IMG/VR virus record: IMGVR_UViG_3300025603_000096
Coordinates: 1-21,808 of that record
Direction: 5' to 3' (one strand)
Origin: a virus
Length of the DNA: 21,808 nucleotides
The notes under the pieces were generated by a model. That model saw nothing but the letters and a program-made list of their open reading frames with translations, was not told the origin of the DNA and made no database searches. Every line of letters begins with the position of its first letter. Within the stretch, counting starts at the first letter, position 1. Below, one piece after another: positions 6 to 14,367 of the stretch. The translations under genes were made by a program, and so were the position numbers.

Positions 6-674
6 ATGGCTACATCCGGAAGCAAAGATTTTGAACTTGATGTTGCAGAGTATGTCGAAGAGGCATTTGAACGCTGCGGTCTTGAAGTTCGGACGGGTTA
101 CGATTTAAAATCCGCAAAGCGGTCTTTAAACCTTTTGCTGGCAGACTGGGCTAATCGGGGTCTGAATCAATGGACTATTAAACAGCGTACTCTTCCGATG
201 GTCACTGGAACAGGCGAATATGCTGTGGGCGCGGACGTTATTGATATTTTATCGGTAGTGGTTCAACGCGACGGCACGGATTTCTCTTTGTTACGGTTGA
301 GCCGGGATGGCTTTTTAACGATACCCAATAAAACGACACAAGGTCGTGTTAATCAATTTTTCTTAGATAGACAAGTTACACCTCAGTTAAAGCTTTGGCC
401 TGTTCCGGACAATAGCACCGATGTTGTCTATTACGACGCTTTAACGCGCATGGACGACGCGGACATATACACGAACACAATGGACATGCCCTTCAGGTTT
501 TATCCATGTTTAGCGGCAGGTTTAGCCTATTATATTGCCTTAAAAAGGGCTCCCAATCGCGTTCAGGTCCTAAAAGGACTCTATGAGGAGGAGTTTGAAA
601 GAGCTGCTACTGAAGATAGAGACCGCGCATCCTTTAATGTTGCACCTCAGTTCAACTATTATGGGAGGGGCTGA
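6..674 (+). CDS. Head-tail adaptor / connector protein (P22 gp4-like)
   Basis: A 222-aa protein that I take to be a ring-forming adaptor between portal and tail. What can be seen: a helical N-terminal third (about residues 8-60, with the motif ADWANRGLNQW at 46-56), a beta-rich middle (65-145) containing LKLWPVPD at 128-135, and a helical C-terminal part (165-205). This layout and size are typical of the adaptor or tail-accessory proteins of short-tailed marine phages. The next large gene but one (973-1623) has the same layout. The ATG lies five bases from the window edge, so its ribosome binding site is not visible. The stop overlaps the next start (TGATG), which implies translational coupling. 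The family is assigned by layout, not by a diagnostic residue; the virion role is fairly safe, the exact gp4 equivalence less so. Confidence 0.72.
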   Translation: MATSGSKDFELDVAEYVEEAFERCGLEVRTGYDLKSAKRSLNLLLADWANRGLNQWTIKQRTLPMVTGTGEYAVGADVIDILSVVVQRDGTDFSLLRLSRDGFLTIPNKTTQGRVNQFFLDRQVTPQLKLWPVPDNSTDVVYYDALTRMDDADIYTNTMDMPFRFYPCLAAGLAYYIALKRAPNRVQVLKGLYEEEFERAATEDRDRASFNVAPQFNYYGRG

Positions 675-976
675 TGGCCAAGTTTGCTTCTGGAAAGGAA
701 TCGTGGGCTATCTCCGACAGATCGGGATTTCGCTATCCCTATCGCTTAATGAAGCGAGAATGGAATGGCCTGTTGGTTGGTCCAGATGAGTTTGAACCCA
801 AACAGCCTCAGTTAGGACCTTTCCGTAAGGTAAATGATCCTCAAGCACTCCAAAATGCGCGACCTGATAGGGTTGAGCCTTTGGATGTTTACGTTGGATT
901 GCCTTTAGTAATTGCACCAAATTTAAGACCGGTACAAGGTTTTGGCCAAACTGGATCAGTGACGGTAACAACATGA
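674..976 (+). CDS. Small conserved virion-module protein, unknown function
   Basis: A 100-aa protein starting inside the stop of the preceding adaptor gene and ending in an ATGA overlap with the second adaptor, so it sits between two connector genes and is probably co-translated. The N-terminal half is rich in aromatic and basic residues (SGFRYPYRLMKREWNG, residues 17-32). The C-terminus, GQTGSVTVTT (91-100), resembles one unit of the 22-residue repeats in the protein at 2371-3075, and also the end of the small protein at 7790-8086. No enzyme motif, signal peptide or membrane segment is visible. A minor structural or assembly role next to the connector is an inference from position. I do not recognise a named family. 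Confidence 0.75.
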   Translation: MAKFASGKESWAISDRSGFRYPYRLMKREWNGLLVGPDEFEPKQPQLGPFRKVNDPQALQNARPDRVEPLDVYVGLPLVIAPNLRPVQGFGQTGSVTVTT

Positions 977-1623
977 GTTTTACTTACGCACAGCTTAAAC
1001 AAGTTATTCAGGACTACACCGAGAATAACGAAACGTCTTTCGTCAATAATTTGCCTATTTTTATTACGCAGGCAGAGGAAAGAATCCTTAAGAACGTCCA
1101 ATTAAGCCTGTTCCGAAAGAACGTTAACGGCGCAATGACCGCTAGTAACCGGTTTTTGGCGGCCCCCAGTGACTTTTTAGCGCCTTTTTCGCTATCTTTT
1201 GTGGATGGAAACAGCGACCACGTGTTTTTACAGTTTAAAGACCCGGATTTCGTTCAAACTTTTAACCCAAAAGCTGCCACTACGGGTGATCCACGGTTTT
1301 ATGCGGTATTTGACGTAGATAACTTTATACTAGGCCCTACCCCTGATGGCGCGTATACTGTAGAGCTTCATTATTTCTACCGTCCGGCTAGTTTGACGGC
1401 TGGTGCCGAATCTGCGACAACATGGCTTAGTACAAACGCTGAGATAGCCTTATTATATGGTTGTTTGGTAGAAGCGTACATATACATGAAGGGTGAAGCC
1501 GATATGATGGCCATTTACGAGAAACGGTTTGTCGAAGCGCTTACTGGAATGAAGATGTTAGGTGAGGCTAAAGAAGTAACGGACGAATACCGTACTGGCC
1601 AAGTAATCAGGCCTAAACAATGA
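973..1623 (+). CDS. Second head-tail adaptor protein (SU10-adaptor/gp4-like)
   Basis: A 216-aa protein likely to form a second ring or the next stage of the connector. It has an N-terminal helix that begins like many phage adaptors (SFTYAQLKQVIQDYTEN, residues 2-18), then LPIFITQAEERILK (27-40), a beta-rich centre with FLAAPSDFLAPFSL (61-74) and FILGPTPDGAYTVELHYFYRP (118-138), and a C-terminal helical region (155-190). The pattern of helix, beta strands with a P-x-PD turn, then helices repeats that of the 6-674 gene, so the two are probably diverged paralogues. It overlaps both neighbours through ATGA. The role as a virion adaptor is well supported by family resemblance. Which of the two binds the portal cannot be told from the sequence. 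Confidence 0.75.
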   Translation: MSFTYAQLKQVIQDYTENNETSFVNNLPIFITQAEERILKNVQLSLFRKNVNGAMTASNRFLAAPSDFLAPFSLSFVDGNSDHVFLQFKDPDFVQTFNPKAATTGDPRFYAVFDVDNFILGPTPDGAYTVELHYFYRPASLTAGAESATTWLSTNAEIALLYGCLVEAYIYMKGEADMMAIYEKRFVEALTGMKMLGEAKEVTDEYRTGQVIRPKQ

Positions 1624-1916
1624 GTGCCGTCGCCTTAGAACTAACCGTCCCTGTCTTCAAGGTGAATGTACACACCACTAGCGGACGAGGTTTTACCCCG
1701 CAGGAAATTGCGGAGAGATGCGCTAATTCAATTATTGCCATTTCGGACGACGCTAACCCTGCCATTAGGGCGCAAGCCCATGCTTTTCGTGGGCAACTAC
1801 TAAAAACCCTAGAATTTTACATGCGTGAAGCTATTAAGTCTGATAGGACGACGGTGCATAACGCTTTAACTGACGCAGGCCATACCGAGCTTGCTAACTA
1901 TATAAGGAGAATGTGA
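1620..1916 (+). CDS. Conserved small helical phage protein
   Basis: A 98-aa mostly helical protein. Its most distinctive part runs from FTPQEIAERCANSIIAI (residues 26-42) to LTDAGHTELANYIRRM (83-98), and includes REAIKSDRTTVHNAL (69-83). From memory, similar short proteins are common beside connector genes in marine phages, but I know of no experimental function. It has no signal peptide or membrane segment. It starts in an ATGA overlap with the preceding adaptor and ends with ATGTGA, just before the ATG of the next gene. A role in capsid or connector assembly is inferred only from location. The gene itself is very likely real because of the overlaps and the good codon structure. Confidence 0.75.
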   Translation: MSAVALELTVPVFKVNVHTTSGRGFTPQEIAERCANSIIAISDDANPAIRAQAHAFRGQLLKTLEFYMREAIKSDRTTVHNALTDAGHTELANYIRRM

Positions 1917-1918
1917 CC

Positions 1919-2371
1919 ATGTCTTTTTCAGGAAACTTCATGTGTACCAGTTTTAAGAAAGAACTGATGTATGGTGCCCACGACTTCGACGCTTCCACCG
2001 GCGATACATTTAAGATCGCTCTCTATACTAACTCGGCGACGATGACTGCGGCGACAACGGCGTATTCAGCGAGCAACGAAACTAGCGGAACAGGTTATGT
2101 GGCGGGCGGCGAGGTATTAACTGCGGTAGACCCGACATCTTCTGGAACTACCGCTTTAACTGATTTCACTGATGCAACGTGGTCAACGGCTACGATTACG
2201 GCTCGTGGGGCGTTGATTTATAATACTACGCCTAACACAACCTCAATCGCTCTCACCAACCCTGCTGTAATAGTGTTGGATTTCGGTGGAGATAAGACTT
2301 CAACGGCGGGTGATTTTACCGTAGTTTTTCCAGCGGCTGATGCCAGTAATGCGATTATTCGGATAGCCTAA
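1919..2371 (+). CDS. Beta-rich virion structural protein
   Basis: A 150-aa Thr/Ala/Ser-rich protein with short alternating strands and almost no charge, typical of a phage surface or tail component. Recognisable stretches are FKKELMYGAHDF (residues 12-23), GDTFKIALYTNSA (29-41), an ATWSTATITARGALIY stretch near residue 95, and the end DASNAIIRIA. From memory, proteins of this pattern are widespread in phage virion modules and are usually annotated only as structural. The start is set at ATG 1919 rather than GTG 1913: AAGGAG at 1904-1909 is 9 bases from the ATG but only 3 from the GTG. The stop overlaps the next gene (TAATG). It could be a head decoration or tail protein; I cannot tell which. 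Confidence 0.75.
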   Translation: MSFSGNFMCTSFKKELMYGAHDFDASTGDTFKIALYTNSATMTAATTAYSASNETSGTGYVAGGEVLTAVDPTSSGTTALTDFTDATWSTATITARGALIYNTTPNTTSIALTNPAVIVLDFGGDKTSTAGDFTVVFPAADASNAIIRIA

Positions 2372-3075
2372 TGGCTAATGTAACCGTCTCCTTCAAAGGT
2401 TGGAATTCTTCCAGTCAAAGTTGGGGCGGTGGGCCATGGGGCCAAGATGAAGGACTTCCTGCATCAACCGGAACTATAGGCACAGTAAGTGTTGTTGCTG
2501 CGGCTAATGTTCCGGCTACGGGACTACAAGCCGCAGGCAGCGTTGGATCGGTCACGATTAGTGCAGATGCAAACGCCGTTGTTACAGGTGTTGCTGTTAC
2601 AGGTGCCGTGGGTTCCGTCACGATTAGTGCAGATGCAAACGCCATTGTTACAGGTGTTGCGGCTACAGGTGCCGTGGGTTCCGTCACGATTAGTGCAGAT
2701 GCAAACGCCATTGTTACAGGTGTTGCGGCTACAGGTGCTATTGGTTCCGTCACGATTAGTGCAGATGCAAACGCCATTGTTACAGGTGTTGCGGCTACAG
2801 GTGCTATTGGTTCTGTTACAGTGGTGGCCGAGGCAAACACCGTTGTTAGTGGTGTTTCGGGAACAGGGCAAGTGGGTAGTGTTACGGTTGAATCCGACGC
2901 TATCGTTAGTGTAACAGGAGTCTATGCAACAGGTGTTGTGGGGCAAGTGCTGGTTTATGGGCGTATTGTGCCGGATCAAGATCCGAACTATACTGAGATA
3001 ATACCTAGTCAGTCGCCAACATGGTCGGACGAAGTGCCGAGCCAAAGTGCAAATTGGACACAAATAGCAGCGTGA
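2371..3075 (+). CDS. 22-residue-repeat beta protein of the virion module
   Basis: A 234-aa protein in three parts. The head (residues 1-31) is rich in Gly and Trp (SWGGGPWGQDEG). The centre (32 to about 197) has seven full 22-residue repeats and a partial eighth, with the core pattern GSVTISADANAIVTGVAATG. The tail (198-234) holds copies of a P-S-Q-S-x-x-W motif and ends WTQIAA. The regular V-x-V spacing with glycine turns suggests a stacked beta fold, perhaps a fibre shaft or appendage. It has a TAATG overlap with the gene before and lies just upstream of the tail fibre gene. Function is not known. A tail appendage or surface decoration is an inference from composition and position. The repeats make several spurious open frames on both strands here. 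Confidence 0.75.
   Translation: MANVTVSFKGWNSSSQSWGGGPWGQDEGLPASTGTIGTVSVVAAANVPATGLQAAGSVGSVTISADANAVVTGVAVTGAVGSVTISADANAIVTGVAATGAVGSVTISADANAIVTGVAATGAIGSVTISADANAIVTGVAATGAIGSVTVVAEANTVVSGVSGTGQVGSVTVESDAIVSVTGVYATGVVGQVLVYGRIVPDQDPNYTEIIPSQSPTWSDEVPSQSANWTQIAA
2464..2967 (+). repeat. Tandem 66-bp repeat array inside the 2371-3075 gene
   Basis: Units begin at 2464, 2530, 2596, 2662, 2728, 2794 and 2860, with a partial unit from 2926. Units starting at 2596, 2662 and 2728 are almost identical in DNA, including silent positions, while outer units are diverged. This points to recent expansion of the middle by unequal exchange or slippage. The period is a multiple of three, so copy number can change without breaking the frame. 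Confidence 0.9.
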
Positions 3076-3085
3076 GGAATTAGAA

Positions 3086-5308
3086 ATGCCTAGTACATAT
3101 ACCGTCAATCTTGGTATTGAACAACCAGCAACCGGTGAGCAGTCGGGAACGTGGGGAGATACGATCAATGACAACTCTACTATCCTAGACGAGGCCATTA
3201 ACGGCGTCGTTACGATAACCCTTGCCGCTGCAGGCTCTTTCGGCTCACCTAATCAAATCGCGATTACTAATGGTGCCTCTTCTGCGGGTCGTAATAAATG
3301 GATTGAATTTGCCGATGACGGCGATTTAGGGGCAGCGGCTTATGTTGAGCTAATTCCAAACGACGCGGAGAAAATATGCTTTATTCGCAATAGTCTCGCG
3401 GGTAGTCGATCAGTTTTCATTTTCCAAGGAACGTATGACGCGGCCCGCGACCTTGAGATTGCTGCGGGCACTGATGTGCTGGTTAAATTCAGCGGTGGTG
3501 GAAGTACGGCTACTGTCATTAACGTTTACGCCAACTTAAAGGTTGACGGAATAGTGGCTACTACGGCAGACATCAATGGTGGCACGATGGATTCGACCAC
3601 GATTGGTGGATCTACCGCTGCGGCGGTTACTGGTACAACAATTGTTGCTAACACTAGCCTTAACATTGCCGCCGATGGCGCGACGGTTACCGGCATCAAA
3701 GACGAAGACAACATGGCGTCTAACAGCGCCACCAAACTGGCCACTCAGCAGTCTATTAAGGCGTATGTTGACGCACAGGTAGCCACGGTCGATACGCTTT
3801 CGAAAGTCCTTGCTATTGGCAACACTTCTGGCAGCACGGATATCGACATGGATAATGCACAGAAGGTGCAATTCCGTGATGCCGCCATATACATTAACTC
3901 CAGCGTAGACGGCCAGCTAGATATTGTGGCAGATACTGAAATACAAATTGCAGCCACTACTATAGACATTAATGGGGCGGTCGCGCTTAATAGCGCATTA
4001 ACCACCACCTCTACTATAGATGGTCGGGACGTAGCCGCAGATGGTGTGACAGCAGATGCAGCACTACCAAAATCTGGCGGCACTATGACAGGTGCTATTA
4101 CAACGGCAGGAATATCATCGGTCACAGCAGGAACAGGCAATTTTGTGGCAGGCGCTGGCGCTGGCGACTCAATCGTTGCAGGTGGTAATAATAACACGCT
4201 GATTGGAAATGGTGCAGGAACTGCGATTACCACTGGATATAGCAACACAGCTAGTGGACAAGGCGCACTTTATAGCAACACGACAGGCGCTAATAACACA
4301 GCAAGTGGGTTTCGGGCGCTCTATACCAACACTACAGGTAGTACCAACACAGCTAGTGGGTTACAAGCACTCTATAGCAACACCACTGGTAGTGGAAACA
4401 CAGCTAGTGGAAAAAGCGCACTCTATAGCAACACCACGGGCGCTAATAACACGGCTAGTGGACAAAGCGCACTTCAAACCAACACTACTGGTACTAGCAA
4501 CACGGCTAGTGGAGTTAACGCACTTTATAACAACACCACGGGCGCTAATAACACGGCTAGTGGGCAAAGCGCACTTTATAGCAACACGACTGGATATAAT
4601 AACACGGCTAGTGGCCACACATCCCTTTATAACAACACCACGGGTCATAGCAACACGGCTAGTGGACAAGGCGCACTTTATAGCAACACGACAGGTCATA
4701 GCAACACAGCTAGTGGACTTAACGCGCTCTATAGCAACACGACAGGTCATAGCAACACAGCTAGTGGAAAAAGCTCGCTTTATAACAACACCACTGGTAG
4801 CGGAAACACAGCTAGTGGACTTAACGCACTCACGAGCAACACCACGGGTAGCGGAAACACAGCAATCAATCCGCTTAATTCAGCAGGCTCTAACGCACCA
4901 GTCTTCAACCCAACAACCGAAAATAACCGTTTTTGCATGGGTTCAACGGGTGTCACCAATGCCTACATTCAAGTGGCATGGACAGTTGTTTCAGATGCGA
5001 GGGACAAGATTAACTTCGCGCCTGTTCCCCACGGCCTTGAGTTTGTCAAAGCGTTGCAGCCCACGGCGTATCAGTTCCGCACTGCGCGGAACTCTGAAGA
5101 AACCAATGGCGGTGTGCGCTATGGCTTCAAAGCTCAAGACGTATTGGCGCTTGAGGGTGATAGCCCAGTCATTGTAGACAATGAAGACGAAGACAAACTT
5201 CGCATGGTGGATACAGCATTAATCCCAGTGCTTGTCAAAGCGTTACAAGAACTATCAACCAAAAACGATGCGCTTGAAGCGCGTTTAACCGCACTAGAAG
5301 GTAAATAA
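3086..5308 (+). CDS. Tail fibre with repeat shaft and C-terminal intramolecular chaperone (Peptidase_S74)
   Basis: A 740-aa trimeric-fibre-type protein. Residues 1 to about 155 look like the N-terminal virion-attachment domain of marine phage fibres (YTVNLGIEQPATGEQSGTWG at 5-24). A linker carries NSATKLATQQSIKAYVDAQV (213-232) and LPKSGGTMTGAITT, both usual in fibres. Residues 387-590 are twelve 17-residue repeats of the NTASGxxALYSNTTGxx type, which should form a stacked beta-roll. The last ~105 residues match the S74 self-cleaving chaperone: Ser636 and Lys641 in SDARDK fit the catalytic pair, followed by PTAYQFR, YGFKAQDV and a terminal coiled coil. In known members the chaperone guides trimer folding and is then cut off at that serine. 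GAGGA at 3074-3078 gives a good ribosome site. It is probably the receptor-binding fibre. Confidence 0.88.
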   Translation: MPSTYTVNLGIEQPATGEQSGTWGDTINDNSTILDEAINGVVTITLAAAGSFGSPNQIAITNGASSAGRNKWIEFADDGDLGAAAYVELIPNDAEKICFIRNSLAGSRSVFIFQGTYDAARDLEIAAGTDVLVKFSGGGSTATVINVYANLKVDGIVATTADINGGTMDSTTIGGSTAAAVTGTTIVANTSLNIAADGATVTGIKDEDNMASNSATKLATQQSIKAYVDAQVATVDTLSKVLAIGNTSGSTDIDMDNAQKVQFRDAAIYINSSVDGQLDIVADTEIQIAATTIDINGAVALNSALTTTSTIDGRDVAADGVTADAALPKSGGTMTGAITTAGISSVTAGTGNFVAGAGAGDSIVAGGNNNTLIGNGAGTAITTGYSNTASGQGALYSNTTGANNTASGFRALYTNTTGSTNTASGLQALYSNTTGSGNTASGKSALYSNTTGANNTASGQSALQTNTTGTSNTASGVNALYNNTTGANNTASGQSALYSNTTGYNNTASGHTSLYNNTTGHSNTASGQGALYSNTTGHSNTASGLNALYSNTTGHSNTASGKSSLYNNTTGSGNTASGLNALTSNTTGSGNTAINPLNSAGSNAPVFNPTTENNRFCMGSTGVTNAYIQVAWTVVSDARDKINFAPVPHGLEFVKALQPTAYQFRTARNSEETNGGVRYGFKAQDVLALEGDSPVIVDNEDEDKLRMVDTALIPVLVKALQELSTKNDALEARLTALEGK
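4244..4855 (+). repeat. Twelve tandem 51-bp repeats in the fibre shaft
   Basis: Twelve in-frame units of 51 bp encode NTASGxxALYSNTTGxx, where x positions vary (QG, FR, LQ, KS, VN, HT; AN, ST, SG, TS, YN, HS). A thirteenth degenerate start (NTAINP) follows at 4856. Neighbouring units around 4679-4780 share long identical stretches, so the array has probably been changing copy number. The variable residues occupy fixed places in each unit, which would put them on the same face of a beta-roll. Confidence 0.9.
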
Positions 5309-5309
5309 A

Positions 5310-5558
5310 ATGAACGAAAAAAGAACTGAAGTAGAATTACTAAAAGACTTTACAGCAATGGGTCACTCAATAGCACTCATCAACGATGTTATTGCAGGAG
5401 TAAGAATGGTCGATGAGACCGCTGAAGAAAGACAATCATGTGTAGATAGAAATGTCGAGCATCTTGTCTTAATGAAAGCAAAAGACGATTGGGGTAACGA
5501 AAGTATGGTAGACGCAGATAACGCTATCACTACAGGCAACGGTTACACAGCGGGTTAA
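5310..5558 (+). CDS. Small hypothetical phage protein (82 aa)
   Basis: An 82-aa acidic, mainly helical protein starting one base after the fibre stop, with AGAAGG at 5296-5301 as ribosome site. Visible features are a helix around ELLKDFTAMGHSIALINDVIAG (residues 9-30) and a C-terminal stretch with DDWGNESMVDADNAITTG. There are two cysteine-free halves joined near a single Cys (about residue 45), and no membrane segment. I do not recognise a characterised family. The tight spacing to the fibre gene suggests a fibre-assembly helper, or simply an accessory gene in the fibre-lysis gap; this is inference from position only. Confidence 0.65.
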   Translation: MNEKRTEVELLKDFTAMGHSIALINDVIAGVRMVDETAEERQSCVDRNVEHLVLMKAKDDWGNESMVDADNAITTGNGYTAG

Positions 5559-5578
5559 TAACAGATAGAGTACCCTAA

Positions 5579-5692
5579 GTGAGCGATACCGCCAAACGTA
5601 ACTTATTTAACGAGTTGCAAGAAGCTTTTAAAGCACTTACCGAGAGGAAACTAAAAGGATCACATGGAACTTATAAACTGGATAACAGCTAA
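5579..5692 (+). CDS. Possible 37-aa small protein (GTG start)
   Basis: A 37-codon frame beginning VSDTAKRNLFNELQEAF (first residue Met if GTG is used) and ending YKLDNS. Its last 29 bases overlap the start of the membrane protein at 5664, a normal arrangement in this genome. The composition is that of a short amphipathic helix with a basic end (ERKLKG). The upstream bases have no clear ribosome site, so translation would be weak or coupled to the preceding gene. It fills the otherwise empty gap after 5558. No family recognised. Confidence 0.4.
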   Translation: MSDTAKRNLFNELQEAFKALTERKLKGSHGTYKLDNS

Positions 5693-5843
5693 CTGGATGA
5701 TCTTGCTTGGGGCTGGCGTCAGTATCGCTTATATAATAGTGACAGTGACCCCCACTAAAAAAGATGATACGGTCTTTTGGAAGTATTACTCCAAGCTGAA
5801 GGCCGTATTGCCCACGCTGCCTAACTTTAAGAAAGACGACTAA
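5664..5843 (+). CDS. Small single-span membrane protein, holin-like
   Basis: A 59-aa protein. Residues 4-29 form one hydrophobic span containing ILLGAGVSIAYIIVTVT. A charged, lysine-rich tail follows (TKKDD at 31-35; FKKDD at the end). Size, a single N-terminal span and a polar C-terminus fit the small membrane proteins often found in phage lysis or tail regions, such as class III holins, but holins cannot be proved from sequence and no endolysin gene is visible nearby. Its ribosome site, AAAAGGA just before the ATG, is nearly the same as the one of the next gene (GAAAGGA), which supports the start. It could instead be an inner-membrane channel or anchor used during DNA entry. Confidence 0.65.
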   Translation: MELINWITANWMILLGAGVSIAYIIVTVTPTKKDDTVFWKYYSKLKAVLPTLPNFKKDD

Positions 5844-5867
5844 ACCCCTAATGAGTGAAAGGATCAA

Positions 5868-7793
5868 ATGCCGCTTACTAAGTTACAGTTACGCCCCGGA
5901 GTAAATCGAGAAACTACTTCGTACACAAATGAAGGGGGTTGGTACGACGGGGACAAGATAAGGTTCCGCTTTGGTACGCCTGAAAAAATAGGCGGATGGC
6001 AAAAGTTGTCCGAAGCCAGCTTTTTAGGCACCTCCCGAGCGCTTCATGCGTTCGTTGCGTTAAACGGCGACCGCTTTCTAGGTAATGGCACAAACCTAAA
6101 GTATTATATCGAAGAAGGTGGGGGCTATAATGACATTACGCCTTTACGACTCACTACATCTGCGGGAGACGTCACGTTTGCCGCGACCAACGGCTCTTCT
6201 ACTATCACTGTTACGGACACGAACCACGGGGCTAATGCCAACGATTTCGTGACTTTCTCCGGTGCAGCCTCGCTGGGCGGCACTATTACAGCGGTGGTCC
6301 TAAACCAAGAATATCAGATTGCAACGGTTACCAGTACGTCCGTTTTCACGGTAGTTGCCCGGGCCGTGGCCACTTTAAACGACATCACCGTTGACGGCCA
6401 ATATACACCTACGCCTGTTGTAGCTAACGCTTCCGACACGGGGAACGGCGGAGCGTCGGTCGTGGGCAACTACCAAGTTCAAACAGGATTAGACACCACT
6501 GTGTCTGGTACAGGTTGGGGTGCGGGAGCTTATTCTCGCGGCACGTGGGGATCGGGCTCTAGTCTTACGGCGGTTGGCGACATCCTGCGAATCTGGACCC
6601 ACGACAACTTTGGAGAAGATTTAATCCTTAACGTCCGCGATGGTGGTATCTACTATTGGGACAAATCAACAAGCTCGGCTCCTTTTGAGCGGGCCGTGGC
6701 GCTTTCTGAATTAGCGGGTGCTGACTCCGCTACGCCCACGATAGCCAAGCAAGTTTTAATTTCAGACCGCGACAGTCACGTTCTGGTGTTTGGGTGCGAT
6801 GCGCAGGACAATATTGGCGTACAAGACCCACTTTTGATCCGTTTTTCCGACCAAGGAAACCCTCTAATATGGTCGTCGCAAGCCACTAATACTGCTGGCG
6901 ATTTGCGTATTGGTACTGGTTCCGAAATTATTACAGCGGTTGAAACGCGTCAGCAAATCATAGTGTTCACCGACAGGTCGCTACATGCTATGCAGTATTT
7001 AGGTCCACCCTTTACCTTCGGTATTAGTATGCTGGCGGAAAACATCACTATAGCAAGTCCGCTTTCAGCGATTGCGGTAGATGACATGGTGTTTTGGATG
7101 GGTATAGAAGAGTTTTACGTTTATTCAGGGCAGGTACAGAAGTTACCTTGTTCTGTCCGCTCGTATGTGTTTAATGATTTTAATTATTCTCAAACAGAAA
7201 AAGTGGCTGCGGGCGTTAACTCTAGCTTCTCCGAAATATGGTGGTTTTATCCTTCGGCAACTTCAGAATCGATTGACCGCTATGTTATTTATAACTACCA
7301 AGAAAAGGCATGGTACTACGGCACCTTGACCCGCTCGGTGTGGATAGATCGGGGAATAGCCCCGTATCCTATTGCGGCGGCTCTGGATGGGTATCTGTAT
7401 TACCAAGAAATGGGTTCGGATGATGGCAGTAACAATCCGCCTTCGGGCATAGCGGCTTATATTGAAAGCAGTCAAATGTCTATTGGTGCGGGGGATGGTT
7501 TTGCTTTCTTAACGAGGCTTATACCAGACGTTACTTTTGAGGGGTCTAGTTCCCCTTCACCCGCCGTTTTAATGACGCTTGAAACTAGAAACTTCCCCGG
7601 TGCGGCATATACTGGCACAAAGAGTAGTACGGTTACGCGCTCCGCAACGGTGCCTGTAGAGCAGTTTACTGAGCAGGTATTTGTTCGGCTACGAGGCCGT
7701 TCTTTTGCCTTTACGATTAATTCGTCAGACACGGGCGTGGAATGGCGGTTGGGCACACCTCGTGTTGACATTAGGCAGGACGGTCGTCGATGA
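5868..7793 (+). CDS. Packaged-DNA stabilisation / tail hub protein (P22 gp10-like)
   Basis: A 641-aa beta-rich structural protein. Its N-terminus, PLTKLQLRPGVNRETTSYTN (2-21) followed by GGWYDGDKIRFRFGTPEKIGGW (23-44), is the hallmark opening of the gp10-like family in many short-tailed phages. In P22, gp10 forms the tail hub or nozzle below the gp4 ring and keeps DNA inside the head. The body shows repeated strands of a beta-propeller style (for example LVFGCDAQD, IIVFTDRSLHAMQYLGP, VFWMGIEEFYVYSGQV) and a GWGAGAYSRGTWG motif. It has a good ribosome site at 5858-5863 and an ATGA overlap with the next gene. The virion hub role is well supported by family; the nozzle geometry is inferred. Confidence 0.8.
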   Translation: MPLTKLQLRPGVNRETTSYTNEGGWYDGDKIRFRFGTPEKIGGWQKLSEASFLGTSRALHAFVALNGDRFLGNGTNLKYYIEEGGGYNDITPLRLTTSAGDVTFAATNGSSTITVTDTNHGANANDFVTFSGAASLGGTITAVVLNQEYQIATVTSTSVFTVVARAVATLNDITVDGQYTPTPVVANASDTGNGGASVVGNYQVQTGLDTTVSGTGWGAGAYSRGTWGSGSSLTAVGDILRIWTHDNFGEDLILNVRDGGIYYWDKSTSSAPFERAVALSELAGADSATPTIAKQVLISDRDSHVLVFGCDAQDNIGVQDPLLIRFSDQGNPLIWSSQATNTAGDLRIGTGSEIITAVETRQQIIVFTDRSLHAMQYLGPPFTFGISMLAENITIASPLSAIAVDDMVFWMGIEEFYVYSGQVQKLPCSVRSYVFNDFNYSQTEKVAAGVNSSFSEIWWFYPSATSESIDRYVIYNYQEKAWYYGTLTRSVWIDRGIAPYPIAAALDGYLYYQEMGSDDGSNNPPSGIAAYIESSQMSIGAGDGFAFLTRLIPDVTFEGSSSPSPAVLMTLETRNFPGAAYTGTKSSTVTRSATVPVEQFTEQVFVRLRGRSFAFTINSSDTGVEWRLGTPRVDIRQDGRR

Positions 7794-8086
7794 GTCGAGG
7801 TCTAGTATTACCTTTATTTCCAAACCCTCCTGCGGATTATGAGCAGATGTATCAAACGGAGGTTATGCGGGCTTTTTCAGTATTTTTGCAACAAGTCAGT
7901 AATCCGGGTCCTTGGCAAGCGTCTGCACTAACACTGCCAAACCTGCAAACAGACAACTATAACCTTCCATTAGGTGGAATATTTCAATATGGCGACGAAT
8001 TGCGTATTACAGTAGCAAACATGCCTTACCTAAGAGGATCACAAGCAACAGGAGCCGTGGGTCAAGCTACGGTAACAATATCATGA
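7790..8086 (+). CDS. Small virion-module protein, unknown
   Basis: A 98-aa protein translated from an ATGA overlap with the tail hub gene, and itself overlapping the zinc-ribbon gene by ATGA. The first half has a helix (YEQMYQTEVMRAFSVFLQQV, residues 17-36). The middle is LPLGGIFQYGDELRITVANMPYL, and the end is ATGAVGQATVTIS. That ending is nearly one unit of the 22-residue repeat found at 2464-2967 and also recalls the end of the 674-976 protein. No enzyme motif is visible. Tail or connector assembly is likely from the neighbours; the precise role is unknown. Confidence 0.75.
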   Translation: MSRGLVLPLFPNPPADYEQMYQTEVMRAFSVFLQQVSNPGPWQASALTLPNLQTDNYNLPLGGIFQYGDELRITVANMPYLRGSQATGAVGQATVTIS

Positions 8087-9929: not shown

Positions 9930-11668
9930 TGGCTACCACAACTACCACGCAGATTGTCCGCGAAGCGGCAGAAATTGAAGCTATTAAGGTAGGACTTTTA
10001 CAGTCCGCCAAAGCCCTCGCCGATCAAGGTATTACAATACCCCCGCAGATGGTTGCGCAAATGTCGGGGCTTCAGATAAAAGCCACGGAACTTGCCGAAG
10101 CAGGAATTGGCGGATACCAACCTTATCTACAAGAAGCCGGTTACACGTTAGGTGACGCCGCAGCCACGTTGGGCAGTACGATGTCCGACGCTGACGCTTA
10201 CAAAAATCAAGCGTTAGGCCTTATGACGGAATCTGCGGGTAATGTCCCCGGTCAGTTGTCCACTGCTCAAGCGGGTATGCAGAGTGCTATTAATTATGGG
10301 GAGGGCGCTACTCAATCGGCCATCGATAAATCACAACAAGCGGTCAATACCGCCGGACAAACGGGGGTTGGTACGACGCTAGGCCAATCTTTATCCGGCG
10401 CGACTGACGCAGCACGAGCTAGTACGTCTAACGCGGGTATTGCAGCGTTAGAATCTGCGCGTCAATCCCAAATTGGAGGAGATAGCGCGGTCCAAGGCGC
10501 TCGGAACATCACCAGCACTGCCGCTCAAGCTTTACAACAAGCGGGAGCGTTTGGCACGGATACTGCTAGGCAAGGCATTGCTGGACTAGCCGAAACTACT
10601 GGCGCTTATGATCCTGCAAGTGCAGGGGCATATATGAATGAATATGAAGATGCCGCAGTGCAGCAAGCGCTTGCGGACATTCGACGCTCTGGAGATATCC
10701 AGCAACAAGCAATTGGCGCTCAAGCAGTTGGCGCAGGCGCTTTTGGCGGATCACGCCAAGCAGTAGCGGAATCTGAACTAGGTCGAAACATTCTTGAACA
10801 ACAAGGTCGTACTGCGGCGGGAATGCGCCAGCAAGGTTTTGAAAGCGCAGCTCAACGCTCTCAACAGGGTTTTGAGTCTCAGCAAGGTCGAGCACAGCAG
10901 GCGGCACAGCTTACAGGTGCTCTGGGTTCCCAAGGTGCTCAATCGGGTATATCTGCTGCACAATCAGCAGGTCAATTAGGCTTATCCGCAGAACAACTTG
11001 CCGCGCAGACTGCGCAACAGGGGGGTCAGTTAGGCGTAACGGCGGCTCAAACGTCAGGTCAGTTGGGTCTTTCGGGAGAACAGTTAGCCTCCGCGAATGC
11101 ACAGGCTTTGGCACAGACAGGTATGAGTTTGCAACAACTTTCAGCCTCTACAGGTATGAGTGCGGCACAGTTAATCGGTCAACTAGGACAATCACAAGCC
11201 CAAATGGGTATGCAAGGAGCGCAGCAATCAGGTCAAATGGGGCTGCAAGCTCAAGAGTTATCGAGTAAGATAGGGCAAGGTATTGGCGGTCTCGGAACAG
11301 ATTACGGACAGCTAAACATTGCTCAAGCGGGGGCTCAAAGTGAACTAGGTGTTCGTCAAGCGGCTCTGGGTGAACTAGGACAAAGTCTACAGCAGCAAGA
11401 GACAGGGTTCTTGTTTGATGTTGGTAAGCAGCAGCAAGCACAACAACAAGCGGTACTGGAAGCGACGCGTCAGAACGAACTGGCTCAAAAATACGAGCCC
11501 TACCAGCGCGTTGGTTTTCTGTCCGATATATACAAGGGTGCTCCGACCAGTCAGCAGACGCTTACGTCTGCCACAGCACCTAATGTTTCACCTGCCCAAC
11601 AACTACTTGGTTTGGGCGTAGCCGGACTGTCCGCATCAGCCGGTGCTAAAAAAGCGGGGTTATTTTAA
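9929..11668 (+). CDS. Ala/Gln-rich internal virion protein (579 aa)
   Basis: A 579-aa protein that is mostly Ala, Gln, Gly and Ser, with few aromatics. From about residue 290 to 480 it runs as a loose repeat of the type GQLGLSxEQLAAQxAQ, at a spacing near 11-18 residues, suggesting long helices or a rod. The conserved C-terminal part contains EPYQRVGFLSDIYKGAPTSQ and ends with a Gly/Ala-rich hydrophobic stretch (LLGLGVAGLSASAGAKKAG). It lies between two other large internal proteins with TAATG overlaps at both ends. Ejected proteins of short-tailed phages are often this helical and low in complexity, so that role is likely, but there is no diagnostic motif. A scaffold-like role is an alternative. 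Confidence 0.68.
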   Translation: MATTTTTQIVREAAEIEAIKVGLLQSAKALADQGITIPPQMVAQMSGLQIKATELAEAGIGGYQPYLQEAGYTLGDAAATLGSTMSDADAYKNQALGLMTESAGNVPGQLSTAQAGMQSAINYGEGATQSAIDKSQQAVNTAGQTGVGTTLGQSLSGATDAARASTSNAGIAALESARQSQIGGDSAVQGARNITSTAAQALQQAGAFGTDTARQGIAGLAETTGAYDPASAGAYMNEYEDAAVQQALADIRRSGDIQQQAIGAQAVGAGAFGGSRQAVAESELGRNILEQQGRTAAGMRQQGFESAAQRSQQGFESQQGRAQQAAQLTGALGSQGAQSGISAAQSAGQLGLSAEQLAAQTAQQGGQLGVTAAQTSGQLGLSGEQLASANAQALAQTGMSLQQLSASTGMSAAQLIGQLGQSQAQMGMQGAQQSGQMGLQAQELSSKIGQGIGGLGTDYGQLNIAQAGAQSELGVRQAALGELGQSLQQQETGFLFDVGKQQQAQQQAVLEATRQNELAQKYEPYQRVGFLSDIYKGAPTSQQTLTSATAPNVSPAQQLLGLGVAGLSASAGAKKAGLF

Positions 11669-14367
11669 TGAATAGAGAAGTAATGGGGCGTAAAATGTTT
11701 GCTCACGGGGGCACCGTCTTCCCGATGCAAGAAGGGGGTATGGCTCCGCCTCCTATGGCTCCGCCTCCTATGGCTCCGCCTCCTATGGCTCCGCCTCCTA
11801 TGGCTCCGCCTCCTATGGCTCCGCCTCCTATGGCTCCGCCTATGGCCGGAATGCAACCAGAATTAGACCCTGCCATTTTAGAGCAAATGCTCGGTAGTGC
11901 TTCTCAACAAATGAATACCATCGACAACGCTGCCGACGCCACAACCATGATTAATGGTATGCGAGGCGACGAACTTCCTCTGGAAGCGCGGTACGCGGAA
12001 CTCGCATTAATTGTCGGCCCTGAAGACGCCAATGCTACACCTGAATCGGTTCTTACTTTGATACAGCCTGTCCTGCAAATTGCGGCGGTTGACCAAGGAA
12101 TTGGCGGATTAGCGGAACAACAAATGATGACCCCGATTGAGGGTCCGATGGCAGAGGGAATTATGTCTACGGTCAATATCGGTGCCCCGGAGGGTCCCGA
12201 CTCTGTAAATTTTAACCAAGGAGGTGCCGTTCAGTACATGCAGGCGGGTGGCCCTCCAGTACCCAACATAGCGGGACGTCAAGGAGAGATTTTTAGAGAG
12301 CAGCAGTCTTTATACCAGTCTTTACTTAACCCTGCGGACGAAGCAGCGGATTTAGAAGAACAAAAGAATTTAACACAGGCGCAAATGTTATTTGATGTCG
12401 CTCAAGGGGCTTTAGCGTTTGCTTCGCCCGGTGATCGTCAAATGAGCCCTGCGGAGCGTTTGGCTCAATCCTTTACGCCTGTTCTAGGAAACATTGGAGC
12501 AAGAGCTGGGGAGCTTGGTAAGTTCAAGCAGGCCCAAAAAGCTCAGACAAAACAGATGGACATGGCGGCCTTACAGGCGGCAGGGTCCTTGTACGGCGCT
12601 GAAAGAGGTGCCGCGCTTACTGCAGAAAACAAAGATATGGGTGAAGTTTTTCAGATCACGGTTACAGGTGCAGACGGCACAAAGACCACGACCACGGGAC
12701 CTGCGACGCGTAAGAGTTATGCTGATTTGCAGCAGCTACATGGTGCCGGAAACGTGAACATCATGGCGATTGCCAAGCCTACTAACGTTAGTCAGAAGGC
12801 CGAAAACCTTATGATTAATGGTGGTTTCGTTGCTGCTGTGCCGGGAACGCCGGGTTACAACGCTCTAATTGCAAAGGGTGCTCTGAGCATGGGCGACGTA
12901 CCTACTTCCGCTATCACCAGCCGGAAGCAATACACCATCCCAACCGATTTAACGATTGGGGATAAAACGTATGCGGCGGGAACGTCTCCTTTCTTTAGTG
13001 AGTTTGAAGCTGCTCAGATTTTTGCCAGCTTTGGTAATGACGCTTTGTCTGAATACGTTAAACCGCTAACCGACAAAGATTACTTGACCGCATACAATAT
13101 GACTAAGGCCCAGTTTGATGCGTTATCAACGCGCAACCAGCAGTATATACAGGGTCTCCCTGTTCTGACGGAAAAAGATTACTTCGGTAAGTTCGGCATG
13201 CTCAAGAACGATTTCTTGGGCCTATCGCCAATCTCACGTCAAAGATTACTTGGCATTGAGACGGAATACGAGTTTAAGCAGATCAACAATGGCGATAAGA
13301 TTGATGTCGTTCGTATTGATAAGAACGATCCAAGCGCTGCCCCTGTTAGTATCTACAGCACGGATATCCTGCAAGACCCTGAGTTATTCAAATTTACTAT
13401 GCCTAATGCTAATGGTGTTTCGGTGGCAACCATTGTTGACCTCACTACTGATTCGGGAAAACGGGCACTGGCCAAAGTTAACGAGCTTAACAAAGCGACT
13501 CCCGGCTCTGCTGTTATGCAGAAACTGGGTACGGAAAGTTTTGTGTCGAAAACCTTCTTGATTCCGGATTCTACCGAAGGTGGTGGCGCAGAAGTGCGTA
13601 TGTCCTTCGACGGTGGTCAAACTTATATTGGATCGGATGGCCTTCCAAGACAGCTTCCACCTAATGCGTTTGAGCTTAGTAACACTATTTCTAACGATGT
13701 TTACCGTAAGGAAAAGGTACGTTCTTCAGCTAAAGATTGGTTGGAACAGAACGACCAAGGTGTTGTTGGCGGAATGACTACGCCACAGGGAAGCGGAATT
13801 TCGCAACCCTCGAATAACGCAGACAAAGCCCTTGTAACAGACACTTTGCAGCAAGTTCGCAACGGTACAGGTTTCTGGTCAGGTTTTAACTCTGCCGTAA
13901 ACGCCGTAGCGGGTGGCATAATTGCCCCTAAAACTTTCTCGGAAATGTACCGAGATACGGAAGAAGGTAGACAGTACGTTCAGATCATTCGCGTAATGGG
14001 TCGTTCCGCTCTAGCCTCGTCACCAAGATTTGCGGTTGCAGACTTGCAGGCTACGGAAGGATTGTTCCCGAGTGAAGAAAATCTGTTCCGTAACCCTGTC
14101 TCTGAAGCAAACAAGCTGTCCTTGTTAGTGGATGCGCTCAATAACGAGGAAATACGCCTGCAAACCCTTAGAGCGTCAGAAGTTCCACAAGACGCTACTG
14201 TTTTAGCGGTCGCGTCTCAAAAGCTTCAAGAAATTGCTCGCTTAAAAGAGCTTCTTGGTCCAGTATTGATTAAAGGTGGCGGCCAAGCCACAGCAAGAGC
14301 TGTTTCAGGTGCTCAAAACTTAATGCGCGGAAATTATCAAACCCAAAGAGCGCCCACAACGCCGTAG
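11668..14367 (+). CDS. Large internal virion protein (899 aa) with N-terminal PMAPP repeats
   Basis: An 899-aa protein. The N-terminus has FAHGGTVFPMQEGG (residues 12-25), then a perfect PMAPP repeat (25-58). A helical region follows, and a second Gly-Gly motif (QGGAVQYMQAGG, about 187-198). Residues 467-499 and 500-532 form two diverged 33-residue repeats that start LTDKDY and LTEKDY. The rest is mixed alpha/beta with no catalytic signature I can identify. Context, between the 579-aa and 1297-aa proteins in a coupled run, points to the ejected or internal protein group. AATG coupling at the start is visible, and the stop is 15 bases before the next gene. It could be a virion enzyme whose active site I do not recognise. 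Confidence 0.65.
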   Translation: MNREVMGRKMFAHGGTVFPMQEGGMAPPPMAPPPMAPPPMAPPPMAPPPMAPPPMAPPMAGMQPELDPAILEQMLGSASQQMNTIDNAADATTMINGMRGDELPLEARYAELALIVGPEDANATPESVLTLIQPVLQIAAVDQGIGGLAEQQMMTPIEGPMAEGIMSTVNIGAPEGPDSVNFNQGGAVQYMQAGGPPVPNIAGRQGEIFREQQSLYQSLLNPADEAADLEEQKNLTQAQMLFDVAQGALAFASPGDRQMSPAERLAQSFTPVLGNIGARAGELGKFKQAQKAQTKQMDMAALQAAGSLYGAERGAALTAENKDMGEVFQITVTGADGTKTTTTGPATRKSYADLQQLHGAGNVNIMAIAKPTNVSQKAENLMINGGFVAAVPGTPGYNALIAKGALSMGDVPTSAITSRKQYTIPTDLTIGDKTYAAGTSPFFSEFEAAQIFASFGNDALSEYVKPLTDKDYLTAYNMTKAQFDALSTRNQQYIQGLPVLTEKDYFGKFGMLKNDFLGLSPISRQRLLGIETEYEFKQINNGDKIDVVRIDKNDPSAAPVSIYSTDILQDPELFKFTMPNANGVSVATIVDLTTDSGKRALAKVNELNKATPGSAVMQKLGTESFVSKTFLIPDSTEGGGAEVRMSFDGGQTYIGSDGLPRQLPPNAFELSNTISNDVYRKEKVRSSAKDWLEQNDQGVVGGMTTPQGSGISQPSNNADKALVTDTLQQVRNGTGFWSGFNSAVNAVAGGIIAPKTFSEMYRDTEEGRQYVQIIRVMGRSALASSPRFAVADLQATEGLFPSEENLFRNPVSEANKLSLLVDALNNEEIRLQTLRASEVPQDATVLAVASQKLQEIARLKELLGPVLIKGGGQATARAVSGAQNLMRGNYQTQRAPTTP
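11740..11841 (+). repeat. 15-bp coding microsatellite (PMAPP)n
   Basis: Six exact copies of a 15-bp unit (ATGGCTCCGCCTCCT) run from 11740 to 11829, with a 12-base partial unit to 11841. They encode a proline-rich linker near the N-terminus of the 899-aa protein. Identity is complete even at silent positions, so the array is young or still changing. Changes by one unit keep the frame. Confidence 0.95.

Follow-up and report, generated by a model that had tools for sequence, protein, structure and literature searches.

In the window analysed here, a 21,808-bp virus record (IMG/VR record IMGVR_UViG_3300025603_000096), we found that the repeat core of a 22-residue repeat protein, encoded at 2371-3075, also forms the C-terminal ending of two small proteins encoded at 674-976 and 7790-8086 (referred to as 2371, 674 and 7790 after the start coordinates of their open reading frames, ORFs, in the window). 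The ending is conserved in nearly all short relatives of 674 and nearly all relatives of 7790 and corresponds to about half of one coil of the beta-solenoid predicted for 2371. It may be a docking strand that would complete the edge of a solenoid, most likely that of 2371, an explanation to which we give an even chance. The features concerned are as follows.

674..976, + strand: 674 protein, 100 amino acids (aa), phrog_28581 family (PHROG E 2.4e-23, residues 1-70)
944..973, + strand: C-terminal solenoid-type strand of 674, GQTGSVTVTT; the stop codon overlaps the ATG of the next gene at 973
2371..3075, + strand: 2371 protein, 234 aa, repeat or predicted solenoid protein (translation, AlphaFold2 model, tandem-repeat array)
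2473..2961, + strand: predicted solenoid coils of 2371, about residues 35-197, 22 residues each (66-bp DNA period over 2543-2867)
7790..8086, + strand: 7790 protein, 98 aa, directly 3' of the gene for a nozzle-type hub
8045..8083, + strand: C-terminal solenoid-type strand of 7790, ATGAVGQATVTIS; the stop codon overlaps the ATG of the next gene at 8083

The shared ending in two protein families

The original prediction held that the endings of 674 and 7790 are both very close to the repeat core of 2371, and translation confirms the two endings and their coordinates: 674 terminates in ...GFGQTGSVTVTT and 7790 in ...RGSQATGAVGQATVTIS, and the 2371 array (66-bp period, 4.9 copies) reads ATGAVGSVTISADANAIVTGVA. 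The likeness also holds family-wide. Specifically, we built a repeat profile from 219 unique units of 85 distinct 2371-family proteins and searched it, at a threshold of 8 bits, against 10,854 distinct ORFs (2371 family excluded) and against 32,562 shuffled ORFs as a control. At least 8 bits were reached by 41 ORFs, namely 17 of the 674 family, 21 of the 7790 family and 3 others; all 38 matches in the two families sit at the C-terminus, and inspection by eye identified the remaining 3 as solenoid-gene pieces. A single shuffled ORF reached the threshold, and none did so at its C-terminus. The result named in the original prediction as refuting it, a lack of motif enrichment at the C-termini of neighbouring genes in related phages, did not materialise: apart from the solenoid pieces, every match (38 of 41) lay at the C-terminus of a 674-family or 7790-family protein.

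Pattern searches gave the same picture. A regular expression (regex) applied to the C-termini of all ORFs from 158 sources had 166 matches, of which 125 belonged to the 674 family and 32 to the 7790 family; the 9 others were all mechanical ORFs on the opposite strand. The strict core occurred outside the three families in 10 ORFs with 7 distinct sequences, 3 of which were solenoid pieces. An exact-pattern scan of IMG/VR (GxVGxVTVx[ST] directly before the stop) found at least 120 stretches; among the matches listed (122 ORFs), 102 were in the 674 family and 18 in the 7790 family. One of the other two is, judged by eye, a truncated relative of 674, and the second is the slot gene (i.e., the gene directly 3' of the nozzle gene, which in the window is 7790) of contig G001, where L- and G-numbers label loci and contigs of relatives. 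The G001 slot gene ends in YLTGLSATGSVGSVTVTT and is not matched by the 7790 profile.

The 674 protein consists of an N-terminal domain, which is zinc-ribbon-like in relatives (CxxC...CxxC), a variable linker and the C-terminal strand. We found the ending in 61 of 62 distinct short relatives, the exception (L165) resembling a frameshifted fusion. Across 28 non-redundant 674 proteins the Gly of the tail is conserved in 100% and the Val/Thr/Val in 89-93%, and the stretch before the tail has indels and weak conservation. A deeper sample of 75 distinct relatives was called as having a terminal strand in 49 cases (46 after L465, L466 and L478 were removed by eye), an internal strand in 13 and no strand in 13, the last group including near misses (e.g., L429); a regex call of a strand in L573, from another set of contigs, was likewise removed by eye. 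False regex calls came from an alternative 674 domain that ends in xxGPVT[LV] and so resembles the strand; this domain may be beta-barrel or FCCH-like, as a weak overlap with the hub in PHROGs (E 0.012) suggests. Four further relatives (L400:6985-7677, L402, L403 and L407) have a Pro-rich or coil linker followed by a C-terminal domain bearing a YYYCTNHSGMGG motif, and PHROGs ties the L400 protein to tail fibre proteins. The C-terminal domains of 674 relatives that we presume, from the look of their sequence, to be cupredoxin-like (including the L400 type) or C1q-like had no match in a Pfam search.

In the 7790 protein (sequence and a low-confidence model), the N-terminal part comprises a PxFPxPPxxY segment and a helix, and a beta segment of the GLPxG type and finally the strand follow. 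The C-terminus is in view at 32 of the 33 loci with 7790 relatives and carries the ending in all 32; with distant relatives included, 59 of 60 distinct ORFs keep it, down to 41% identity to the window, and the sole relative without it, 377 aa long, differs in its C-terminal part. The slot gene is longer and fibre-like in some relatives. At six loci (L419, L423, L425, L427, L435 and L446) its product bears the strand plus one more strand-like stretch (ATASLGFVSVITGGNISVNI). When 7790 was compared with solved structures, the best row was rotavirus VP4 (E 0.33), which we treated as a chance match.

Predicted solenoid coil and graded fusions

The 2371 protein can be divided into an N-terminal three-Trp WG segment, the 22-residue coils and a C-terminal IVPDQDPNYTE..NWTQIAA segment. 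Its AlphaFold2 model (25 sequences) has block means of the predicted local distance difference test (pLDDT) of 80-94 over residues 61-190 (83-94 over most of this stretch) and a predicted template modelling (TM) score of 0.71, and shows regular tandem 22-residue coils with a recurring strand pattern at high pLDDT. A typical coil in the model runs through strand 1 (VGSVTISA), a turn, strand 2 (AIVT), strand 3 (VAA) and a TG turn, and the repeat is accordingly predicted to be one coil of a parallel beta-solenoid rod. VIA-align matched the model to right-handed parallel beta-helices, i.e., 3lyc (Z 13.0, 178 aligned, root-mean-square deviation 3.9) and the HxuA secretion domain 4i84 (Z 12.9, 170 aligned, root-mean-square deviation 3.0). 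These proteins resemble 2371 in the predicted coil of about 22 residues and in the stacked strands (Z about 13 over 170-178 residues); 2371, represented here by a monomer model, differs from them in being a phage protein with near-exact 66-bp repeats and from 1 to 34 counted coils among its relatives. Foldseek returned nothing significant for the model against the PDB (best E 4.9e-3, TM 0.10) and, against BFVD, phage proteins whose names were uninformative (best E 4.2e-8). On this model, the shared ending would correspond to the TG turn and strand 1 of one coil, and the 674 and 7790 chains both stop right after strand 1.

The length of the solenoid varies widely. At its shortest the syntenic 2371 gene encodes 34 aa and one coil, and at its longest 832 aa and 34 counted coils; a solenoid signature was found in 95 of 216 downstream ORFs, a signature that misses several real solenoids. 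One-coil orthologues measure 34-61 aa, and a one-coil protein of 34 aa could hardly form a rod alone. One-coil microproteins of 34-45 aa replace the solenoid gene at L066:2756-2866, L360, L088, L107 and L155. As a separate observation, a Laminin_G_3 lectin domain (PF13385, E 1.7e-18) is inserted among the solenoid coils at L087:2561-4025, and L103 has, by eye, an insertion of the same type.

Coils are also found on the 674 domain itself, in graded numbers. Half a coil is the form in the window; DSL-LC04 has one coil and a second half coil; most of the 13 internal-strand cases among the 75 relatives have 1-3 coils followed by other domains; and 24 distinct fusions join the domain to long solenoid arrays. 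One of these fusions is Roseobacter phage CRP-902 gp53, whose C-terminus is a three-Trp WG segment resembling the N-terminal segment of 2371. None of the 7 scorable fusion loci showed a separate solenoid gene within 4.5 kb. Relatives in which 674 and the solenoid form one polypeptide are what a docking pair encoded by two genes would be expected to look like once joined. The 674 N-terminal domain is shared by CRP-902 gp53 and Pelagibacter phage HTVC027P gp65, which differ from 674 in that the former has no free terminal strand and the latter has other C-terminal domains; both phages have small proteins near the nozzle without the strand, and HTVC027P gp68 is solenoid-like by eye.

Co-occurrence, candidate docking and its alternatives

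To relate the strand to the solenoid gene, we compared their presence across loci. Of the 674 loci with a terminal strand, 78 had 4.5 kb of sequence downstream; in this stretch the regex found a solenoid-like gene at 59 loci and not at 19 (one of the latter, L095, has a solenoid gene by eye). All 14 contigs of 53-59 kb combined a 674 strand (11 terminal, 3 internal) with a solenoid gene, and 13 of them also had the slot-gene strand (one with an extension; it was absent in L079). By contrast, a solenoid gene was present in none of 7 contigs of 37-60 kb with neither strand, in which the slot gene stops at ...LYNDSGTVKV or similar. When distinct pairs of slot gene and 674 gene were counted, all 29 with a slot strand also had the 674 strand (3 regex misses were assigned by eye) and none had the slot strand without it; 9 had the 674 strand only and 13 had neither (11 contigs from a set of 12, HTVC027P and 023Pt). 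L414 and L141, in which the slot gene is cut off before its end, were excluded. The association between the two strands has a Fisher p of 1e-6, although the pairs are not independent. The 7790 strand is optional, and the 674 strand and the solenoid gene are more tightly coupled.

A common docking strand, as proposed in the original prediction, is the best reading of these data: the ending matches the turn and strand 1 of a predicted solenoid coil, is kept where the preceding sequence is wholly different, and goes with the solenoid gene in 14 of 14 against 0 of 7 long contigs. The pattern, its conservation, the graded fusions and the co-occurrence are read from sequence and the fold is predicted; from these we infer the contact itself. 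A lone solenoid strand at a chain end would be unable to fold by itself, and might act by beta-augmentation, joining the open edge of a solenoid, for which the likeliest acceptor would be 2371 or a homologue. The adaptor-side 674 would then be clipped to the rod, in many phages the fibre-base 7790 likewise, and the rod would thereby be fixed at neck and tail. More tentatively, and with the balance somewhat against it, the three gene products may form a composite beta-solenoid in which the end strands of 674 and 7790 stack on the coils of 2371 (1 to 34 counted coils), so that the joint of neck and tail would be one solenoid spread over separate chains, to be shortened, lengthened or fused by changes in the genes. 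If the docking reading is right, it would provide a sequence-readable rule for how widespread aquatic short-tailed phages hold their parts together: one strand pattern would mark both partners, predict which small proteins adjoin the rod and account for how fibres or rods could swap between phages. It would also propose a joint role for phrog_28581, which carries no functional annotation, and for the slot-gene proteins.

Several results limit the observation or weigh against docking onto the solenoid. In the repeat profile the window's own 7790 scores 7.0 bits and its 674 only 3.2 bits; because of these low scores, the observation in this single genome is suggestive, and it is the family data that make it firm. 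A structure model of 7790 was uninterpretable (pLDDT 42.7) and was not used. When 13 of the 19 solenoid-negative loci were searched contig-wide (L424 was a 14th contig searched, apart from those 13), 6 had a solenoid or a remnant and 7, all fragments of 6.7-34 kb, had none. The 674 strand occurs without the slot strand in L064, L079, L082, L094, L389, L374, DSL-LC04, G042 and CRP-902 (a fusion); in L079, L082 and L094 the contig end truncates the slot ORF, and these three were counted because they resemble L064. HTVC027P is a clear exception to the coupling, as it keeps the solenoid-like gp68 together with a 674 homologue that lacks the strand. Finally, the associations largely reflect shared ancestry, and after reduction by eye to 14 lineages the association between slot and 674 strands was not significant (p 0.21).

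The strongest alternative, unlikely though credible, is that strands of the same protein pair with one another (in a 674 ring or a 7790 trimer) to form a small closed beta structure without a solenoid partner. In SU10 both the adaptor rings and the fibres are oligomers (PMC9509320), which would bring several strands close together; moreover, the 7 fragments above combine a 674 strand with no detectable solenoid gene, and slot proteins of the L419 type bear a second strand. Homotypic pairing fits poorly, however, with the division of the long contigs (14 of 14 against 0 of 7) and with natural fusions that join the 674 domain straight to solenoid coils.

Another explanation is descent, with the ending being the remnant of a once-fused solenoid domain, retained without a partner for the protein's own folding or by inheritance. 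The 674 domain occurs with 0.5, 1.5, 2-3 or many coils, in some cases with additional domains behind them, and this series speaks for it, as does the range of 2371 itself from 1 to 34 counted coils. We nevertheless consider it improbable, given that the strand is conserved like the core of the N-terminal domain and the linker is not, and that 674 and 7790, with unrelated N-terminal parts, both terminate just past strand 1. Descent also bears on the suggestion in the original prediction that one module had spread by recombination. Codon sharing was about the same within as between genomes (0.294 vs 0.266; 0.209 vs 0.207; 0.344 vs 0.377), so recent copying is not supported as the source of the likeness, and we rejected recent gene conversion as its main cause; the comparison of 674 with the repeat was slightly raised (3 of 500 permutations), for which codon usage may account. 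What stands of that suggestion is an old common descent of the strand, which the graded fusions make likely.

A further possibility lies in the nucleotides, namely that the last codons are kept because the next gene uses them for ribosome binding, with the amino acids simply following. Among distinct tails, 150 of 169 in 674 and 49 of 71 in 7790 have a stop codon overlapping the next ATG, and in the window the strand codons at 944-976 and 8045-8086 coincide, with an ATGA overlap, with the region of the next gene's ribosome site. The last Val is encoded by GTG in 127 of 169 674 tails, compared with 6 of 226 internal coils. In 95 of 167 674 tails and 21 of 61 7790 tails, GGTGA is present within 13 nt before the next ATG. 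Because of this overlap, the GTG preference and the position of GGTGA, the next gene's ribosome site probably constrains codon choice at the end of the strand, making this an example of a protein strand whose codons probably double as such a site. As the cause of the ending itself the constraint is very improbable: it covers only about the last three codons and not GxVGxV, the codons for V1, G and V4 are variable, and the same residues recur away from a gene end, both in internal coils and in the internal strands of 674 relatives (13 of 75). The residues further in are left unexplained by the ribosome site. Chance or low complexity, to which the low scores of the window's own proteins might point, is excluded for practical purposes by the shuffled control (1 of 32,562 ORFs, none at the C-terminus) and by the IMG/VR scan, in which 120 of the 122 pattern matches listed belong to the two families.

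Completion of a sheet by a terminal strand is a known principle, as in the donor-strand exchange of chaperone-usher pili, and TasA is said to use it as well. The docking proposed here would be analogous in that the terminal strand of one chain would complete the sheet of another, and would differ in that the acceptor would be a solenoid edge and not an Ig-like groove. The beta-solenoid fold is likewise known already; what appears to be new is one solenoid strand common to adaptor-side, nozzle-side and rod proteins. A literature search of titles and abstracts (most subscription journals lying outside its coverage) found no description of the shared ending, and we found no mention of such terminal strands in the accessible part of the SU10 description (PMC9509320).

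Tail module and neighbouring genes

The window carries, by sequence, features of an SU10-type tail module, i.e., two PF24175 adaptors and a nozzle-type hub that matches solved chains. The genes around 674, 2371 and 7790 are listed below.

6..674, + strand: adaptor 1, SU10-type (PF24175; Pfam E 2.7e-14, over the cut-off)
973..1623, + strand: adaptor 2, SU10-type (PF24175; Pfam E 8.2e-25, over the cut-off)
Between adaptor 2 and the phrog_644 protein: 98-aa protein
1913-2371: phrog_644 protein
3086-5308: S74-type fibre
5868..7793, + strand: nozzle-type hub (phrog_3287 E 1.6e-62; nozzle chains 8zkm/8zkk E 3.8e-5; 9nwi E 3.1e-14)

As in the SU10/T7-type short-tail module, the two adaptors are followed, in order, by the hub; the window differs in having a small zinc-ribbon-like protein between the two adaptor genes and an extra solenoid gene. 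Gene position and the nozzle and adaptor matches make 674, 2371 and 7790 putative virion proteins. A Pfam search matched none of the three, and a sequence search against solved structures found no relatives for 674, 2371 or the adaptors.

A three-Trp loop of the SU10 nozzle holds the trimeric short fibre (PMC9509320). By sequence, a WG-rich three-Trp loop pattern was present in 73 of 122 ORFs for hubs and 114 of 136 for solenoids, as against 20 of 2984 others, and columns 3-32 of the 2371 profile match hub ORFs (E about 1e-3). Because such loops are common in solenoid ORFs and the 2371 profile matches hubs, the rod itself may carry a fibre dock. In the window, the hub has two Trp only in the corresponding loop, and the WG-rich Trp segment at 2371-2460 is common to the hubs of relatives and resembles the fibre dock loop of SU10.

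Two other repeats were observed in the window: the S74-type fibre contains a separate tandem repeat that follows the pattern SNTTGxxNTASGxxAL, and a large protein encoded at 11668-14367 has a MAPPP repeat close to its N-terminus.

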